NCBI GenBank assembly: GCA_029265905.1
Contig: JAJUGR010000011.1
Coordinates: 1 to 64,000, forward strand
Direction: 5' to 3'
DNA: 64,000 nt
DNA from: Sporomusaceae bacterium
GTDB taxonomy: Bacteria; Bacillota; Negativicutes; Acidaminococcales; JAJUGR01
The position numbers and the translations under genes were made by a program. The notes beneath the pieces are model-generated. The model was given only the letters and a program-made list of their open reading frames with translations. It ran no database searches and was not told the origin of the DNA. This document shows, piece after piece, positions 44,641 through 53,284 of the stretch (positions are counted from its first letter, which is position 1; every line of letters begins with the position of its first letter).

Positions 44641-47184
44641 TCAGCACACCCGCCTGATTTTTTTCAGCAGCTCAAACCATACCATGGTGAATACCCACAC
44701 AACCAGACAAATCGCCACGTCCTCCAGGTGCAGTTCGGCAAAGCGAAACACCTCTCGTAAAAAGGGCACAGCTAAGATCACGCCGATAAAGACGACTGCG
44801 CCGCCCGCCACCCAGCCCAGGGCGGTGTTATGCGAGCGAAACACCGCCCAAAAAGATTCCGACCAGGAGCGGTTCGCGACAATAAGCGAGATATTGCCCA
44901 TCACCAGCGTCACGAAAGCAAACGCCCGCGCCTCGCCCTCGCCCCGCTCGAGCGTCAGTACCATCCAAAACATCGCCACCGTAATCACGAGGGCGCTGAT
45001 GCCCTGCGCCAGGCTGAGCGCCACGATGTCGCGGCTGAGCAAGGCCTCATCCGCCGGCCGCGGCGGGCAACGCATCGCATCCGCCTCCATTTGCTCCGCC
45101 TCAAACACAATCGCACAGGCCGGGTCAATCAGCATTTCCAGCAGCACTACATGGGCCGGAAACAACACCAGCGGCCACCCGAAAAACAGCGGCAAAATCG
45201 TCATGCCGATAATCGGTATGTGGATCGCCAAAATATAGGCGGTGGCCTTTCTCAGATTGGCATAAATCCGCCGCCCCATGGCCACAGCCTTGACAATGGA
45301 AGAAAAGTCATCGTCCAGCAGCACCAGGCCGGCCGCCTCCCGCGCGACATCCGTACCCCGCCCGCCCATGGCAATGCCGATATGGGCCGCCTTCAGCGCC
45401 GGCGCGTCATTCACGCCGTCGCCGGTCATGGCGACAACCTCCCCGTTTTCCTTCAGCGCCTTGACGATGCGCAGCTTGTGTTCCGGCACGGCCCGGGCAA
45501 AGACCTGGACATGGTTGATCCGCGCCCGCAGTTCGGTGTCGCTCAGCGCTTCAAGTTCCGGCCCGGTCAAGATGGCATCCCGGCAAACAAGCCCGATTTG
45601 GTCGGCAATGCTTTGCGCCGTGCCCGCATAGTCGCCCGTAATCATCACAACGCGCATCCCTGCCGCATAACAGTCCCGGATCGACTCCGCAGCACCGGGC
45701 CGCAGGGGATCCGCCAGGCCGGTCAGTCCGATCCACTCAAAAGCAAACTCGTGCTGGCCTTCCGGCAGCTGCGCCCCGCAGTATTCAGCCTTGGCAATCC
45801 CCAGCACCCGCATGCCGGCCAAGGCCATCGCTTCCACCTGCGCCATCTGGCGCCGGCGCTCCGCATCATCTACATGGCAAAGGTCCAGCACCGCTTCCGG
45901 CGCCCCTTTGGCGGCTACAACGCAACATTGACCGTGCGGCGCCCGCCAGATGTGGGAAAGCGCCAACAGGCCGGGCAGCAAGGGATACTCCCGCTCCATA
46001 ACCCAGTCGGAATGCAGGTGTTCAGTCTGCTGCAGGTACTTGTCGCCCAAGTGTTTAAACGCTTTTTCCATGGGATCGAGCGGATCGCGCTGGCTGGCCA
46101 GGATGCTGAATTCCACGATCTCGTGCAGGCTTTCCGGCAATTCCTGACCGCCCATCGCGCTGAGGTCATAGCCTTGTCCGTCGACAAAAAACGCTTTGAC
46201 CTCCATCTGATTTTGCGTCAGCGTGCCAGTCTTGTCAACGCACAACACCGTCGCCGCGCCAAGCGTTTCAATCACCGCCACCCGGCGCGTCAGCACCTGG
46301 TTTTTTGACAGGCGCCAAGCACCGAGCGCCATAAAGACAGTCAGCACAACCGGAAACTCTTCCGGCAAAATCGCCATCGCCAGCGTAATGCCGGCCAAAA
46401 CACCCTGCAGCCAGTCGCCGCGTTCCAGGCAAAAGACCAGCACCACTACGGCGCAAAAGCAAAACCCTGCTACGCTCAGCCGGAATACAAGCCGTTTTAT
46501 TTCGCGTTGCAGCGAGGTGTTTTCCGTCTGCAGCGTCTGCAGCGACAGACCGATCCGCCCCATGGCCGTGCGGCAGCCGGTGGCGGTAATTTCGGCAAAG
46601 CCTTGTCCGCGCACCACCAAGGTTCCGCTATACACAAACGGCTGATCATCGCCGCCGGGCGCGGCCGGCGCAGCCGGCAAATCGCCAGCCTGCTTGCGCA
46701 CCGGCGCCGATTCGCCGGTGAGCAGGCTCTCATCCACCAGCAGGTTTGTTTCCGCCAGCAGGCGTCCGTCCGCGGGAATGCGATCCCCTTCCGACAGAAT
46801 CACGACATCGCCCCGCACCACCTCACGCCCGGCGATACGCATGATCTGCCCGTCGCGGATGACAGCCGCCCGCGGGCTGGCCAAATCGCGCAGCCGCTCT
46901 AAGGCGCGCTCCGTTTTGCGCTCCTGGTGCAACGTGATGCCCATGACCAGGAAAACAAACATGAGCAGCAGCAGGGCTTCCTGAACGTCGCCCAGCAGCA
47001 GGTAAATGGCGCCGCCGCCCAACAGCATCAAGAACATCGGCTCCCGCACCACGGCAAGCGCAATGCGCCAGACCGGCCGATGCTGTTGGGCCGGCAATTC
47101 ATTTGCGCCTTCAACGGCCAGGCGCCTGGCCGCCTCGGCTTCCGGCAGCCCCATCAGCTTATCTTGTTCAAACAAGGCGGACAT
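44641..47184 (-). CDS. cation-transporting P-type ATPase, Ca2+/PMR1-like (P2)
   Basis: 847 residues from the ATG at 47184 (GGAGGTG upstream; the frame opens 48 codons earlier). N-terminal cation-ATPase domain, actuator TGES near 157-160, phosphorylated D317 in DKTGTLT, the M4 site PEEFP near 274-278, the hinge MTGDGVNDAPALK, and a C-terminal membrane domain. The M4 motif and overall layout fit P2 pumps; the cation is uncertain (Ca2+ or Mn2+ possible). It starts 34 bp after mgtA. Confidence 0.9.
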   Translation of the reverse strand: MSALFEQDKLMGLPEAEAARRLAVEGANELPAQQHRPVWRIALAVVREPMFLMLLGGGAIYLLLGDVQEALLLLMFVFLVMGITLHQERKTERALERLRDLASPRAAVIRDGQIMRIAGREVVRGDVVILSEGDRIPADGRLLAETNLLVDESLLTGESAPVRKQAGDLPAAPAAPGGDDQPFVYSGTLVVRGQGFAEITATGCRTAMGRIGLSLQTLQTENTSLQREIKRLVFRLSVAGFCFCAVVVLVFCLERGDWLQGVLAGITLAMAILPEEFPVVLTVFMALGAWRLSKNQVLTRRVAVIETLGAATVLCVDKTGTLTQNQMEVKAFFVDGQGYDLSAMGGQELPESLHEIVEFSILASQRDPLDPMEKAFKHLGDKYLQQTEHLHSDWVMEREYPLLPGLLALSHIWRAPHGQCCVVAAKGAPEAVLDLCHVDDAERRRQMAQVEAMALAGMRVLGIAKAEYCGAQLPEGQHEFAFEWIGLTGLADPLRPGAAESIRDCYAAGMRVVMITGDYAGTAQSIADQIGLVCRDAILTGPELEALSDTELRARINHVQVFARAVPEHKLRIVKALKENGEVVAMTGDGVNDAPALKAAHIGIAMGGRGTDVAREAAGLVLLDDDFSSIVKAVAMGRRIYANLRKATAYILAIHIPIIGMTILPLFFGWPLVLFPAHVVLLEMLIDPACAIVFEAEQMEADAMRCPPRPADEALLSRDIVALSLAQGISALVITVAMFWMVLTLERGEGEARAFAFVTLVMGNISLIVANRSWSESFWAVFRSHNTALGWVAGGAVVFIGVILAVPFLREVFRFAELHLEDVAICLVVWVFTMVWFELLKKIRRVC

Positions 47185-47218
47185 ACCGATCACCTCCGGT
47201 TTCATCGCGCTGCTTGCC

Positions 47219-49735
47219 CTACCAGCCATACCGCCGCCGGAAATACCCTTTAACCAGCTCCACCAGCAGCAAATACGCCGCCACCAGTCCGCCGATGGCG
47301 GCAAGATAAGCGCCCGCCAGCGGCACAAAGCCGAAGAACGACTGCGCCGGGCTGAATGGAATCATGATGCCAAACAGCACGCAAAACAGGGTGGTCGCCA
47401 ACAGCCACTTGCTGGGCCGGCTTTTCAGCAGGCTGTGCCGCGAGCGGATAACGTATATGACCAGCACTTGCGTGGCCAGCGATTCAATAAACCAGCCGGT
47501 TTGGAAAGCCGCCTCCCCGGCCTGAAAAACATGCAGCAGCACCAGAAAAGTCAGCACATCGAACAAAGAGCTGACCGGCCCGAATACCAGCATAAAGCGA
47601 CGGATGAATTTCACATTCCAGCGTCGCGGCCTGGCCACGGCCTCTTTGTCAACCGCATCGGCGGGAATCGCGATTTGCGACAAGTCATACAGCAGGTTGT
47701 TCAAGAGAATTTGCACCGGCAGCATGGGCAAGAACGGCACCATAACCGAGGCGAAGGACATGCTGAACATGTTGCCGAAGTTGGAGCTCGCCCCCATCAT
47801 GATGTATTTCATCGTGTTGGCAAATGTGCGGCGCCCCTCCAGCACGCCGTCTTTCAGCGCCCCCAAGCTCCGCTCCAGCAGGATGATTGACGCCGCTTCC
47901 TTGGCCACGTCAACCGCGTTATTGACGGAAATGCCAACGTCCGCCGCTCGCAGCGAAGGTGCGTCATTAATGCCGTCGCCAATATAGCCGACGACATGGC
48001 CCTTTCGTTTCAGCAAGTGGATGACCCGGTCTTTTTGCGCCGGGGTCAGGCGGGCAAAGAGCGAGACGTGGTCGACAGCGCGGGCCAGCGCCTCGTTCGT
48101 CATTTTATCCATTTCCGTCCCGACAAGAATCCGTTCAACGGGTATGCCGACCTCTTCGCAAACCTTTTTGCTGACCAAATCATTGTCGCCAGTCAGAATT
48201 TTTATTTTAATCCCCAGCGCTTCCAGGTCGGCAATGGTTTGCCCCACACCCTCCTTCGGCGGATCAAAGAAGGACAACATGCCTAAATAAACTAGGTCGG
48301 CTTCATCTTCCGCCGCAAAGCTGCTGCGCGCCTCTTCAACTTGTTTGTACGCCACAGCAATAACCTTGTTGCCCTTGGCGCTCTCCGCTGCAAAATGCGC
48401 CTGCGCTTGCTCGGCAACGTCCTTGTCAAATGGCTCGCTCGCGCCATCATGCCAATATTGCGTACAACAGGCGAAGATTGATTCCGGCGCCCCCTTGGCA
48501 ATCAGCAGTTGCTCCCCCTCGCCCTTGACAACGACGCTCAACCGCCGCCGGACAAAATCGAAGGGGACTTCGTCCACCTTGGTGAAAAGGCCTCCCGCCT
48601 CTGGCACAGGCACAGCCGTTATTGCCAAATCAAGCGGATTTTTCATTCCGCCCTGCAGGCTGCTGTTGAGGTAGGCATACAGCAATATCTGCCGCTGTGG
48701 ATTGCCGAACGCATCCTGATAGCCAACCAGTTTCAATTCGCCTTCGGTCAGGGTGCCGGTCTTGTCCGAGCACAACACATCCATGCTGCCGAAGTTCTGA
48801 ATGGAAGCCAGCCACTTGACGATGACACCCTTATGCGACATCGCCACCGCGCCGTTCGCCAAGTTCACCGTCATAATCATGGGCAGCAATTCCGGCGTTA
48901 ATCCGACCGATATCGCCACGGCAAACAGAAAGGATTCAAAAAACCCTTTATTCATCGTTGCGTTGAGCAAGAAAATGACCGAAACAAGAATAAAAATAAC
49001 CTTGACCAGCATCAGGCTGAACTCTTTGATTCCCCGCTCAAAATCAGTCGGCGGCGGCGCAATGGTCAGGGTATGGGCAAGCCGGCCGATTTCCGTATTC
49101 TTGCCAGTCGCCACAACCACCGCCCGGGCAATGCCGCTGACCACGCTTGAGCCCATGAACAGCGCATAATCCATGTCGGCAATCGGCGCCTCCGGCATCC
49201 GGCTTGTTTCCACGCGTTTTTCCACTGGAAACGACTCGCCGGTCAGGGACGCCTGATTGACGTACAAGTCTTTTTCACTCAGGATTCGGGCATCGCCAGG
49301 AATAATATCCCCCGCCGACAGCAGCACCACGTCGCCCGGCACCACCTGGCGCAATTCCACCTCCTGCTTCACGCCGTCGCGCAGAACCGCAGCGTGAATG
49401 GAAACGCGTTTATTCAACGCGGCCGCCGCTTTCATTGAGCGCCGCTCGTGGTAGAATTGCAGGCAGACACTAAATAAGACCAGCGTGCTGATGATGACGC
49501 TGCCGCGCACTTCGCCGAGAAAATAGGATAGCGCATCCGAAATCAGCAATACCAACACCAGGGGGTTCGCAAACTGGCGCAAAAAAGCTTCCACATCGCC
49601 AATGACGCGTTTTTCTTCCAAACTGTTTGGCCCGTATTGTTTCAACCGTCCGGCCGCCTCTGGCGAACTCAGGCCGTCAGCGCCAGTTTGCAATGTTTGC
49701 AGCAATTCGTCGATGGGCTTATTCAATATGGCCAT
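47219..49735 (-). CDS. mgtA: magnesium-translocating P-type ATPase
   Basis: 838 residues. TGES at 165-168, D324 in SDKTGTLTEGE, hinge GDGINDAPSLR, and the MgtA/B-specific M4 context (GLTPELLPMI, 278-287) are all present. It imports Mg2+. A short leader with an attenuator-like hairpin lies 26 bp upstream, suggesting control by premature termination; I could not match it to the M-box riboswitch. Confidence 0.94.
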   Translation of the reverse strand: MAILNKPIDELLQTLQTGADGLSSPEAAGRLKQYGPNSLEEKRVIGDVEAFLRQFANPLVLVLLISDALSYFLGEVRGSVIISTLVLFSVCLQFYHERRSMKAAAALNKRVSIHAAVLRDGVKQEVELRQVVPGDVVLLSAGDIIPGDARILSEKDLYVNQASLTGESFPVEKRVETSRMPEAPIADMDYALFMGSSVVSGIARAVVVATGKNTEIGRLAHTLTIAPPPTDFERGIKEFSLMLVKVIFILVSVIFLLNATMNKGFFESFLFAVAISVGLTPELLPMIMTVNLANGAVAMSHKGVIVKWLASIQNFGSMDVLCSDKTGTLTEGELKLVGYQDAFGNPQRQILLYAYLNSSLQGGMKNPLDLAITAVPVPEAGGLFTKVDEVPFDFVRRRLSVVVKGEGEQLLIAKGAPESIFACCTQYWHDGASEPFDKDVAEQAQAHFAAESAKGNKVIAVAYKQVEEARSSFAAEDEADLVYLGMLSFFDPPKEGVGQTIADLEALGIKIKILTGDNDLVSKKVCEEVGIPVERILVGTEMDKMTNEALARAVDHVSLFARLTPAQKDRVIHLLKRKGHVVGYIGDGINDAPSLRAADVGISVNNAVDVAKEAASIILLERSLGALKDGVLEGRRTFANTMKYIMMGASSNFGNMFSMSFASVMVPFLPMLPVQILLNNLLYDLSQIAIPADAVDKEAVARPRRWNVKFIRRFMLVFGPVSSLFDVLTFLVLLHVFQAGEAAFQTGWFIESLATQVLVIYVIRSRHSLLKSRPSKWLLATTLFCVLFGIMIPFSPAQSFFGFVPLAGAYLAAIGGLVAAYLLLVELVKGYFRRRYGW

Positions 49736-49847: not shown

Positions 49848-49877
49848 TTGACGGCGCGGCCGACCGGCTGTTATAAT
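49848..49877 (+). promoter_or_regulatory. sigma-A promoter of the riboswitch-cobT pair
   Basis: TTGACG (49848-49853) and TATAAT (49872-49877), 18-bp spacer, about 20 bp before the riboswitch. On the opposite strand the -10 region reads TATTAT and could serve mgtA. Confidence 0.8.
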
Positions 49878-49896
49878 AGGGCTCAAGCAAGATATA

Positions 49897-50062
49897 GGTT
49901 TAGGGTGCCACTTTGTGGAGAATAGGGAAGTCGGAGCATGCCAAGCGCATGCGTACGCGCGGGCCCGCCACTGTACCGCAGAGACCTTGCCGATGCCACT
50001 CGACTTGTCGGGGAAGGCGCAAGCCGTTGATGATGCGGGAGCCAGGAGACCTGCCCTGAACA
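49897..50062 (+). promoter_or_regulatory. cobalamin (B12) riboswitch
   Basis: The B12 box AGCCAGGAGACCTGCC is intact near 50040-50055. The preceding GGTGCC, AATAGGGAAGTCGG, GCCCGCCACTGT and GATGCCACT elements appear in canonical order; GTTTA (49898-49902) pairs with TGAAC (50057-50061) to close the domain. Bound cobalamin should favour the terminator at 50088-50120 and shut off the cobT pair. Confidence 0.96.
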
Positions 50063-50087
50063 GAAATTAAAATCCTTCATGGAAAAG

Positions 50088-50120
50088 AAGGCTTTTTGGC
50101 TGTGCATGCCAAGAAGCCTT
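50088..50120 (+). terminator. expression-platform terminator of the B12 riboswitch
   Basis: A 13-bp stem with one G-U pair and a 7-nt loop, followed by TTTCTTTTTC. It lies 34 bp before the first cobT start codon. Confidence 0.92.
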
Positions 50121-50154
50121 TTTCTTTTTCCAAATGAAAGCAATGGAGGTCGCG

Positions 50155-51213
50155 ATGAGTTTACTCGAAACAGCCAAAAAACGTATTCTCCCCTTAAATA
50201 CTTCGGCTATGGCGCAGGTAGCGCAGCAGGCAGCCAAACTGGAACCGTTCGGCCGCTTGTATGACATGATTTACCAGTACGCCGGCATCACCGGCACCTC
50301 GCCCCTGCCGTTGCCGCGCAACTGCATGGTCGTCGCCTGCGCCGACCACGGCGTCGCCAGGCACAACATCAGCGCCTACCCAATCGAAACGACGCTCCAC
50401 ATGACCGCCAACTACCTGATAGCCAAGGGCGCCAGCGCCAACGCCTTCGCCAATTTTTGCCGCGCCGACATGGCGGTCGTTGACGTGGGCGTCGCCGGCG
50501 ACCTTTCGCACGTCACGGGACTCTGGCACAAAAAAATCGCCTACGGCACCCAAGACTTTTCAGTGGGCCCGGCCATGACAAAAGAACAAGCGATCCAAGC
50601 GATTGAAACGGGGATTGAGATCGTCAACGACCGTGTCCGCCATGGCTACACCTGCTTTAGCCTGGGCGAAATGGGAATCGGCAACACCACGTCGAGCGCC
50701 GCCATCGTCGCCGCCTTCACCGGCCTGTCGCCCGACGTCGTCACGGGACGCGGCACGGGCATTTCCGACAGCCGGTTCCAGGTGAAGCTCGACATCGTCC
50801 GAAAAGCGCTAGCTATCAATCGGCCCGATCCGGCCGACGGACTGGACGTTTTGTCCAAGCTGGGCGGCTTTGAAACCGGCGCGCTAGCCGGGGTCATCCT
50901 CGGCGCCGCCGCCAACCGCTGCGGCGTCGTCATCGACGGACTCAACACGACCGCCGCCGCCCTGATCGCCAGCGCCATCCATCCGACCTGCCGGGAGTAT
51001 ATGTTCGCCTCGCACCTGTCCGGCGAACCGGCGCACATCATCGCCCTGCGGCATCTTGGGATGACCCCCTGCATCGACATGGGCGTCCGCCTGGGCGAAG
51101 CGATCGGCGCCTCGGTCGTCATGAACGTCCTGGAAGCGTCGATCAAGTTTTACAACAGCTTGTCCGATCAATCGTCATTACCCCGCCACAAGGAGGATAC
51201 GGCCCATGCTTGA
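50155..51213 (+). CDS. cobT: CobT-family lower-ligand phosphoribosyltransferase, catalytic-type subunit
   Basis: 352 residues from the ATG at 50155, chosen because GGAGGT lies 6 nt upstream. CobT moves ribose-5-phosphate from nicotinate mononucleotide to dimethylbenzimidazole or another base, making the alpha-ribotide for the cobamide lower ligand. GEMGIGNTTSSAA and the C-terminal RLGEAIGAS are present; the Glu in the latter aligns with the general-base Glu317 of Salmonella CobT. Overlaps by 8 bp a divergent CobT homologue, the gene arrangement of Sporomusa ovata arsA-arsB, whose products act as a heterodimer on phenol and p-cresol. Either plain CobT or an ArsA-like role is possible. Confidence 0.93.
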   Translation: MSLLETAKKRILPLNTSAMAQVAQQAAKLEPFGRLYDMIYQYAGITGTSPLPLPRNCMVVACADHGVARHNISAYPIETTLHMTANYLIAKGASANAFANFCRADMAVVDVGVAGDLSHVTGLWHKKIAYGTQDFSVGPAMTKEQAIQAIETGIEIVNDRVRHGYTCFSLGEMGIGNTTSSAAIVAAFTGLSPDVVTGRGTGISDSRFQVKLDIVRKALAINRPDPADGLDVLSKLGGFETGALAGVILGAAANRCGVVIDGLNTTAAALIASAIHPTCREYMFASHLSGEPAHIIALRHLGMTPCIDMGVRLGEAIGASVVMNVLEASIKFYNSLSDQSSLPRHKEDTAHA

Positions 51214-52108
51214 CGCAACGATTGCGGCGATTGCGCCGCTGGACGAGCAGGCGATGGCAGCCTGCCAAATACGCCTCGACAACCTGACCAAGCCGCTCAA
51301 CAGCCTGCTGTGTTTTGAACAGCTCGCCCGCCAGCTGGCCGGCATTACCGGCCGTCCCAAACCAAGCAAGGCGCTGAAAAAATCCCTCCTGCTCCTATCC
51401 GGCCCAACCGCCGATGAACTCGAAGCAAAAAAAACGGCGCACCTGCGCGCCGCGATTGCCGCAGGCCTCGCCCCCGTCAGCCTGTTTGCCGCCCACGTCG
51501 ACGCCCCGGTTGCCGTCGCCGACATAACGGCGCCGGCCGGCCCGCTGACGCGTGCGCAGGTGCTCGACAGCCTGGCGCAGGGCCTCTTGGCCGCCCGGCA
51601 TGAAGTCGAACAAGGCGCTCAGGTACTCGGCCTGGACGCCTTGACCAGCGGCAGCGACGAGGCGGGAGCCGCGCTGATCGCCTCCATGGGCGGCCAAACC
51701 GATCCCCTGCTGCTCTTAGAGCGGCAGGGCGATCCGGTGCTGTGCGGACTGACCGGCGCGATCCTGGGCGCGGCGGCCGCCGGCGCGGCCGTCGTGCTGG
51801 ACGGCGTAGCCGCCGATGCCGCCGCCCTCCTGGCCCTGCAGCTCGCGCCGCAGGTCAAGCCGTATTTGATCGGCTCGCACCTGTCCGCCCACCCGGCCCA
51901 CCAGACGGCGCTTGATCTGCTCGGCCTGCCCGGCCGCCTCGATCTGCAGCTGTCAGTCGGCCAGGGCGTCGGCGCCGCCTTGGGCATGATTTTCATCAAC
52001 GCCGCCCTGCATGTCATCAATGACATGCGGACGTTCGGCGAAGCCGGCGTGGCCGTGGCCCAGGACGGCCCTGGCGCCCTGAAGCAAAGCCAGTCCGTAA
52101 GAGAATAA
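51206..52108 (+). CDS. divergent CobT homologue, ArsB-like partner subunit
   Basis: 300 residues, shorter than CobT (about 350). The C-terminal half parallels the upstream protein (GAILGAAAAGAAVVLDGV with GVILGAAANRCGVVIDGL; IGSHLSAHPAH with FASHLSGEPAH), but the segment for the general-base Glu reads SVGQGVGAA, with Gln in its place, and the N-terminal GIGNTTSSAA loop is not recognisable. It therefore probably cannot act alone and may form a heterodimer with the upstream subunit, as ArsB does in S. ovata. The 8-bp overlap supports equal translation. Confidence 0.8.
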   Translation: MLDATIAAIAPLDEQAMAACQIRLDNLTKPLNSLLCFEQLARQLAGITGRPKPSKALKKSLLLLSGPTADELEAKKTAHLRAAIAAGLAPVSLFAAHVDAPVAVADITAPAGPLTRAQVLDSLAQGLLAARHEVEQGAQVLGLDALTSGSDEAGAALIASMGGQTDPLLLLERQGDPVLCGLTGAILGAAAAGAAVVLDGVAADAAALLALQLAPQVKPYLIGSHLSAHPAHQTALDLLGLPGRLDLQLSVGQGVGAALGMIFINAALHVINDMRTFGEAGVAVAQDGPGALKQSQSVRE

Positions 52109-52113
52109 TCAAC

Positions 52114-52154
52114 AAGGGGCCTTCGTTCGCGCCATTGCCGAACCGAGGCCCCTT
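52114..52154. terminator. bidirectional terminator after the cobT pair
   Basis: AAGGGGCCT (52114-52122) and AGGCCCCTT (52146-52154) form a perfect 9-bp stem, flanked by T-rich sequence rightward and TTGTTGATTATT on the minus strand. Confidence 0.7.
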
Positions 52155-52168
52155 GCCTTTTGCTTTGC

Positions 52169-53284
52169 TTATACGCTCCGTTTCGCCGCGCCGCCCCGCG
52201 CGTCGACGTTCAACACGTCTTCCACGTTGCCGTTTCGATGCGCAATCAGATAACTCGTCATATTGGCAGCCGCGCACGCGTGGTTGGGGATAATTTCAAT
52301 TTTATCACCGATGGCCAGGCTTGTTTGTCCGGTTGCGCGGATTTTGCCGACTTCCTCGGACAAGGATTCAACCACCAGTTCCGGATGACCTTTGACAATG
52401 CCGAAGCCGTTCAGCAACGCCACGCCATGGGCGCCCTTGTCAAGCCCAAAGCACTTGCTGCCGGCGTCCATAATAAAGAGATTTTCCTTTGGATTAGCGA
52501 CGACCGTCGCCAGCACGGTAAGCGCGCACCGCTCTTCAGGAATGACGCCCAGCGCCACCTGAATCGCGTCGTAGTACGCATAGTTGCCCGGCCGCACCGT
52601 CGTAACATTGTCGTCCCGAACGGCCATCGGCGCCGTCGGCGTGCTCCCCGTCGCAACAACCGCCACAGGGAAGCCGGCTACGCGCAGCGCATCGCTCGCT
52701 TGTTGCAGCGCCTTCATTTCCTCTTCGGCGACTAGCCCCACGCCGGCCAGATCGCTTTTGCCGTACACGTGCCCGGGATGCGTGGCGATGCCCTTAAAGC
52801 GCAACTGTGTCAGGCCGCTTAGCGCTTGCGCCAAGGCGACTACGCCGTCCGGCTCTACGCCAAAGCGGTGCAACCCGCAGTCAATAATCAGCAGGTAATC
52901 AATCGCGAGTCCGCGCTCAGCCAGCGCCGCATCAAACTGCCGGGCGACTTCGACGCCGTCAAAGCTAAGCGTGACATGCGCCTTGGCCGCCAGCGCCAGC
53001 ACCCGGGCGATATTTTCCGCCCCGGCAACAGGATAGGCCAGCACAATTTTTGCGTGTCCGTTTTCGATCAGCTTTTCCGCCTCATCCAGCGTCCCAGTCA
53101 AGAAACTGTCAACACCGTACTTTGACTGCAGCGCGGCGATCGCGGCGCTCTTGTGCGTCTTCACCATCGGGCACAACTTTTTTCCGTTCGCCCGGCAAAG
53201 CTCCGCCATTTCCTTTAAATTTTCTTCCAGCTTGTTCATTTCAACTAGAAAACTAGGGGTGATCAAGGTTTCGATTCGTTTCAT
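52169..53284 (-). CDS. fold-type III PLP enzyme, D-threonine aldolase / D-serine dehydratase-like
   Basis: 371 residues from the ATG at 53284 (GGAGG upstream; the frame opens 59 codons earlier). N-terminal alanine-racemase-like barrel: the PLP lysine is likely in CPMVKTHKS (near residue 40); the DSD1-type C-terminal domain contains the IPNHACAA motif with the metal-binding His/Cys pair near 345. It acts on D-hydroxy-amino acids. It is the only intact enzyme of an operon whose two upstream genes are broken. Confidence 0.88.
   Translation of the reverse strand: MKRIETLITPSFLVEMNKLEENLKEMAELCRANGKKLCPMVKTHKSAAIAALQSKYGVDSFLTGTLDEAEKLIENGHAKIVLAYPVAGAENIARVLALAAKAHVTLSFDGVEVARQFDAALAERGLAIDYLLIIDCGLHRFGVEPDGVVALAQALSGLTQLRFKGIATHPGHVYGKSDLAGVGLVAEEEMKALQQASDALRVAGFPVAVVATGSTPTAPMAVRDDNVTTVRPGNYAYYDAIQVALGVIPEERCALTVLATVVANPKENLFIMDAGSKCFGLDKGAHGVALLNGFGIVKGHPELVVESLSEEVGKIRATGQTSLAIGDKIEIIPNHACAAANMTSYLIAHRNGNVEDVLNVDARGGAAKRSV

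Follow-up and report, generated by a model that had tools for sequence, protein, structure and literature searches.

The overlapping genes arsA and arsB in the 64,000-nucleotide stretch of Sporomusaceae DNA analyzed here (the window) very probably constitute an arsAB operon, the products of which would form a heterodimer of ArsA and the pseudo-enzyme ArsB with a single active site that activates a phenolic base. The membership of the pair in ArsAB is a near certainty, and the pair is a further example of this already known two-part enzyme.

A first-pass annotation of the window had pointed to a resemblance to ArsAB, which is borne out by sequence matches, phylogeny, and diagnostic residues. 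The best PDB sequence match of ORF 1 (ArsA) is 4hdk_A, the ArsA chain of Sporomusa ovata (E=4.9e-151; next best CobT, 4e-60), and its identity to S. ovata ArsA is 68%. ORF 2 (ArsB) best matches the S. ovata ArsB chain 4hdk_B (E=3.1e-73; next 1.2e-24). At diagnostic alignment columns chosen with the window excluded, ORF 1 agrees with ArsA at 16/16 and ORF 2 with ArsB at 9/10. ArsA, ArsB, and CobT proteins for comparison were collected from 301 genomes of the class, from directed stretches, from named genomes (S. ovata DSM 2662 among them), and from E. coli K-12. Two trees were built. In the careful one, with 39 proteins, ORF 1 groups with S. ovata ArsA in an ArsA clade (support 100/100) and ORF 2 belongs to an ArsB clade (100/99), neither clade including the CobT of E. 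coli or the canonical CobT of Negativicutes; the quick one, with 80 proteins, yields the same placement. The tree, proposed as a check in the first-pass annotation, thus groups the pair neither with canonical CobT nor with unrelated proteins. Such clear clades also argue against an ordinary CobT function, in which the pair would act mainly on 5,6-dimethylbenzimidazole (DMB), a different benzimidazole, or a purine, and its use of phenolics would be incidental. We regard this alternative as improbable, even though ORF 1 exceeds the curated cobT equivalog cut-off.

Layout and control elements of the operon

The features of the locus are as follows, in window coordinates.

49848..49877, + strand: promoter, sigma-70-type, TTGACG-18 nt-TATAAT, 11/12 consensus matches, TG before the -10
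49886..50072, + strand: cobalamin riboswitch aptamer RF00174, 87.9 bits, model positions 1-189/189
50085..50130, + strand: intrinsic terminator (riboswitch expression platform), hairpin 50085-50123 with a 16-pair stem, followed by a T-run
50155..51213, + strand: arsA (ORF 1), predicted catalytic subunit of NaMN:phenol/p-cresol phosphoribosyltransferase, from ArsA sequence match and clade
51206..52108, + strand: arsB (ORF 2), shortened, catalytically degenerate partner, from ArsB sequence/fold match and clade
52019..52105, + strand: C-terminal tail characteristic of ArsB, NDMRTFGEAGVAVAQDGPGALKQSQSVRE, where conservation among ArsB proteins is highest
52113..52155, no strand given: operon-ending hairpin, located after arsB and before the start of the interval of the convergent gene (52169), MFE -30.5 kcal/mol, z -5.7

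Promoter, aptamer, and terminator provide the elements for riboswitch-controlled transcription of arsAB. The aptamer match begins 9 nt downstream of the promoter end and scores well above the gathering score of the RF00174 covariance model (31.5 bits). The terminator (MFE -27.9 kcal/mol, z = -5.2) lies directly before the coding region. The intact B12 riboswitch and terminator that had been read ahead of the pair are therefore both present. Judging from its riboswitch family, the aptamer presumably responds to cobamide, and low cobamide would let transcription pass the terminator.

The likely start of arsA is ATG 50155, preceded by GGAGG at 50145-50149 and specifying a 352-aa protein with the N-terminus MSLL, as in S. 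ovata ArsA; an in-frame upstream ATG at 50134 would extend it to 359 aa. ORF 2 (300 aa) has an intact frame, its own ribosome binding site (AAGGAGG at 51190-51196), and an 8-nt overlap with arsA. Both proteins exceed the PF02277 cut-off, in agreement with the earlier reading of two overlapping CobT homologues, and a PF02277 search of the whole genome returned arsA and arsB as its only CobT-family genes. Two adjacent P-type ATPase genes (44641-49735, - strand) are divergent from arsAB, the nearer being of the magnesium-translocating type and the other closest to calcium-type models, below the cut-off. The gene convergent with arsB, at 52169, is aldolase-like. Flanked by these opposite-strand and convergent genes, arsAB is a stand-alone two-gene operon.

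Cobalamin riboswitches also occur elsewhere in this genome. Two further ones (contig C11, locus L085:6011-10420, + strand) lie near genes for a CbiK-like protein with a signal peptide and a BtuB-like TonB-dependent receptor, after which come ABC transporter and ExbB/ExbD/TonB-like genes. A 60-bit match (contig C40:16564-16694, - strand, locus L087) is directly 5' of gltX, encoding glutamate--tRNA ligase. This is an unusual riboswitch target, through which the glutamyl-tRNA that serves tetrapyrrole synthesis could be linked to the level of cobamide.

Complementary conservation of ArsA and ArsB

In the first-pass annotation, the first protein was described as keeping GEMGIGNTTSSAA and RLGEAIGAS, and the second as about 50 residues shorter, with SVGQGVGAA at the catalytic-Glu site and hence no catalytic base of its own; ORF 1 and ORF 2 have exactly these traits. 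ORF 1 retains all catalytic motifs (GEMG Glu, LGE Glu, and RGTG), and both catalytic Glu residues are invariant in ArsA (44/44 sequences). ORF 2 has lost ADHG, GEMG, RGTG, and the Glu base, with Ala and Gln at the two catalytic Glu positions. It falls 52 residues short of ORF 1 and 50 short of the 350-aa S. ovata ArsB, relative to which it lacks parts of three stretches, 76-90, 121-135, and 196-225 (CobT numbering). Such loss is widespread: the LGE general-base Glu persists in 23 of 44 ArsB sequences, the GEMG Glu in 12 of the 44, and the RGTG loop is mostly deleted. Erosion of the ArsB catalytic machinery thus recurs across Negativicutes and is not peculiar to this genome.

Tandem arsA-arsB order and every ArsA catalytic motif are shared with S. 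ovata ArsAB (PDB 4hdk, 4hdm, 4hdn, 4hdr, and 4hds), but S. ovata ArsB keeps the GEMG and NLGEG Glu residues in its longer chain. Veillonella ArsAB likewise has tandem genes and members in the ArsA and ArsB clades, but its ArsB is longer and occupies a separate long branch.

Loss of about 50 residues and of all catalytic motifs, together with the long branch of this ArsB (0.73-0.74), might be taken to mean that arsB is decaying and non-functional, leaving ArsA to act alone as a homodimer. This is very unlikely given the intact frame, the dedicated ribosome binding site, and the 8-nt overlap, and since ArsA has lost the matching tail, such a homodimer would be without it. In addition, the N-terminal segment and the tail of ArsB are strongly conserved here and in relatives, the ORF 2 tail being nearly identical to that of S. 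ovata ArsB, and many families keep a short ArsB, also as fusions. The AF2 model of ORF 2 is a confident fold (pLDDT 94.7, pTM 0.93), with ArsB chains as its best PDB matches in Foldseek (TMq 0.86-0.87). ORF 2 is therefore a real gene, as its frame, ribosome binding site, conserved tail, and model attest; we rejected both a sequencing error and a dead gene in view of the intact frame, the conserved tail, and the class-wide parallels.

Conservation along the two proteins (E. coli CobT numbering) is complementary. In ArsA, conservation is strong throughout the active-site region (61-330), though not in the segments 16-30 and 331-359, whereas ArsB is conserved at 16-60 and 331-359 and weakly conserved or deleted at 76-90, 121-150, and 196-225. 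Mean conservation in ArsA/ArsB is 0.83/0.37 at positions 91-105 and 0.84/0.19 at 196-210, as opposed to 0.36/0.70 at 16-30 and 0.32/0.87 at 331-345. D27, K31, P32, E40, and the DGPG-bearing tail are invariant or near-invariant in ArsB; the tail is absent from ArsA, and its DGPG part is absent from CobT. Canonical CobT is conserved through both regions, the last residues excepted.

Canonical CobT is the homodimeric product of one gene, with site and cap in one chain. The fold and the catalytic Glu pair of ArsA are shared with the CobT of S. enterica and E. coli and with Negativicutes paralogues, but no single chain here combines the active-site loops with the C-terminal tail, ArsA being without the tail and ArsB without the loops, and the roles of site and cap are split between two proteins. 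In the CobT crystals of Cheong and co-workers from 1999, the N- and C-terminal parts reportedly form a small domain over the active site of the other subunit, and the S. ovata structural work of Newmister in 2012 is reported to have found transferase activity in ArsA only. Combined with the reciprocal conservation, this small-domain arrangement suggests one composite site, built from the ArsA large domain and an ArsB cap, which would agree with activity in ArsA only. The best reading of these sequences is that the pair would be an obligate heterodimer with one active site, located in ArsA and completed by ArsB. In this species, ArsA and ArsB made from the overlapping genes would associate around the single working site of the ArsA large domain, and ArsB would act as a pseudo-enzyme that supplies the N-terminal segment and the C-terminal tail lost by ArsA, thereby completing or capping that site.

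Natural ArsA-ArsB fusions occur in several families as open frames of ~580-845 aa with an eroded ArsB half. They are found in the Selenomonadaceae-like family f15, Propionispora, a Massilibacillus MAG, and others, and have both halves in the same order as the genes described here, albeit in one polypeptide rather than two. One of them was modeled as a single compact body (pTM 0.91), the ArsA half of which matches ArsA chains (TMt 0.94-0.96).

Lower ligand and cobamide metabolism

Sequence does not settle the ligand choice among phenol, p-cresol, and DMB. The ArsA pocket residues Y82/M90/M180 correspond to Y/M/M at CobT positions 80/88/175, and a CobT S80Y/Q88M/L175M mutant has been co-crystallized with p-cresol (titles of PDB 4kqj/4kqk). 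This signature was rejected as proof of phenol specificity and is not diagnostic of phenol use, since several canonical Negativicutes CobT proteins have F/Y-M-M, including the very residues of ArsA. V. parvula ArsAB prefers phenolic bases (PMC4657239), which speaks against an ordinary CobT function of the pair; in favor of it, DMB is bound by S. ovata ArsAB in PDB 4hdr and can also be activated by ArsAB (PMC8123684). With a non-diagnostic pocket and an enzyme family that accepts DMB, phenolic ligand use in vivo is roughly three in four likely, whereas ArsAB membership is near certain.

The genome (2.42 Mb, 98.8% complete) encodes the remaining de novo cobamide pathway in a separate operon with cbiD, cbiF, cbiG, cbiH, cbiC, cbiA, cobU, cbiP, cbiB, cobS, cobD, cbiK, and a gene for a CobC-like phosphatase; cobT was not found in this operon. 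V. parvula has an extra cobT (PMC8123684), whereas ArsAB is the only CobT-type enzyme here, as might be expected if the pair served an ordinary CobT function. The precursor side weighs against that function. The sole ThiC-family protein is ThiC and falls below the BzaB cut-off; the TIGR04386 match was discarded as a sign of benzimidazole synthesis, its score being below the cut-off and the protein being ThiC. ThiH is encoded in a thiS-thiG-thiH cluster (484 bits versus a 380 cut-off; contig C14, locus L154:6953-9148, - strand), and this enzyme cleaves tyrosine to dehydroglycine and p-cresol (PMC9046217), so that the cell has its own source of a phenolic ligand.

Among cobamide-dependent enzymes, the genome encodes a MetH-like methionine synthase, methylmalonyl-CoA mutase, glutamate mutase, and the class II ribonucleotide reductase NrdJ (444 bits; contig C34:43148-44719, + strand, locus L155). 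Diol dehydratase (PF02286) gave no match in the genome, but as the control genomes were silent too, this result carries no weight. Class II ribonucleotide reductases are usually thought to use a base-on cofactor, which phenolyl cobamides cannot supply. NrdJ, if base-on-dependent, fits uneasily with a pool made up of phenolyl cobamides alone; its presence favors an ordinary CobT function and is the main point against a simple phenolyl picture. According to PMC6759758, the binding of AdoCre- and AdoPhe-cobamides to a methylmalonyl-CoA mutase is similar in strength to that of cobalamin, and base-on enzymes show no activity with cobamides that lack the intramolecular bond.

Returning to the phenolic reading that we favor, the ArsA site would use NaMN as phosphoribose donor and a phenolic base, p-cresol or phenol being the likeliest, as acceptor, to yield an alpha-ribotide, from which CobS and CobC would then produce a phenolyl or cresolyl cobamide. 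ThiH would be the presumptive source of this ligand in vivo.

ArsAB across Negativicutes

A 37-residue profile of the ArsB tail matched 273/381 Negativicutes genomes. In 399 genomes across the phylum, full-length, high-scoring matches all fell within Negativicutes; the other matches scored 20-30 bits and covered the first ~20-27 residues only. The ArsAB-type pair is not rare in Negativicutes, and the ArsB tail alone is no proof of phenolyl-cobamide production. A published survey reported arsAB in 27 species by the rule of tandem cobT genes of 300-800 aa (PMC6461909). Several families have an ArsB of ~270-330 aa, and others have ArsA-ArsB fusions. Part of the gap between 27 species and 273 genomes is therefore probably explained by ArsB proteins of <300 aa that fail the size filter and by fused genes that are not tandem; another part is due to the larger genome set used here. 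With short and fused ArsB common in Negativicutes, the published rule should under-count arsAB.

Other gene arrangements were also observed. In the same order, relatives resembling Acidaminococcaceae (family name inferred) have arsA-cobS-arsB-cobC (L035, L036, L040, L045, and L072), where ArsB is without the DGPG tail and retains a CobT-like EMxTF end; these may have branched off early or belong to a different branch of the system. Locus L060 (genome G002) has two CobT-like ORFs in tandem (355 and 409 aa), of which one groups with the basal ArsA-like proteins and the other with the canonical CobT proteins. A tandem of cobT genes is thus by itself no marker of ArsAB.

A broader scenario, which we offer as tentative and rather short of even likelihood, is that a homodimeric enzyme was duplicated and its copies eroded reciprocally to give ArsAB, with ArsA keeping the site but not the cap and ArsB only the cap, and that the two were re-fused in several lineages; that p-cresol released by ThiH as a by-product of thiamine synthesis is the physiological ligand source; and that phenolyl-cobamide capacity, taken across the class, is much commoner than 27 species. 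If so, the structure of the product of one vitamin pathway would be determined by another such pathway, and this capacity would have been missed because short and fused ArsB escape the tandem-gene and size filters of the survey.

Whether a given bacterium or enzyme can use a cobamide depends on the lower ligand. Very few organisms have been shown to contain phenolyl cobamides; those named in PMC8123684 are S. ovata and V. parvula. Our findings place this organism among the likely phenolyl-cobamide producers, and it has no activating enzyme other than ArsAB. The reciprocal conservation of ArsA and ArsB provides a simple, testable account of why one reaction needs two CobT-like proteins.
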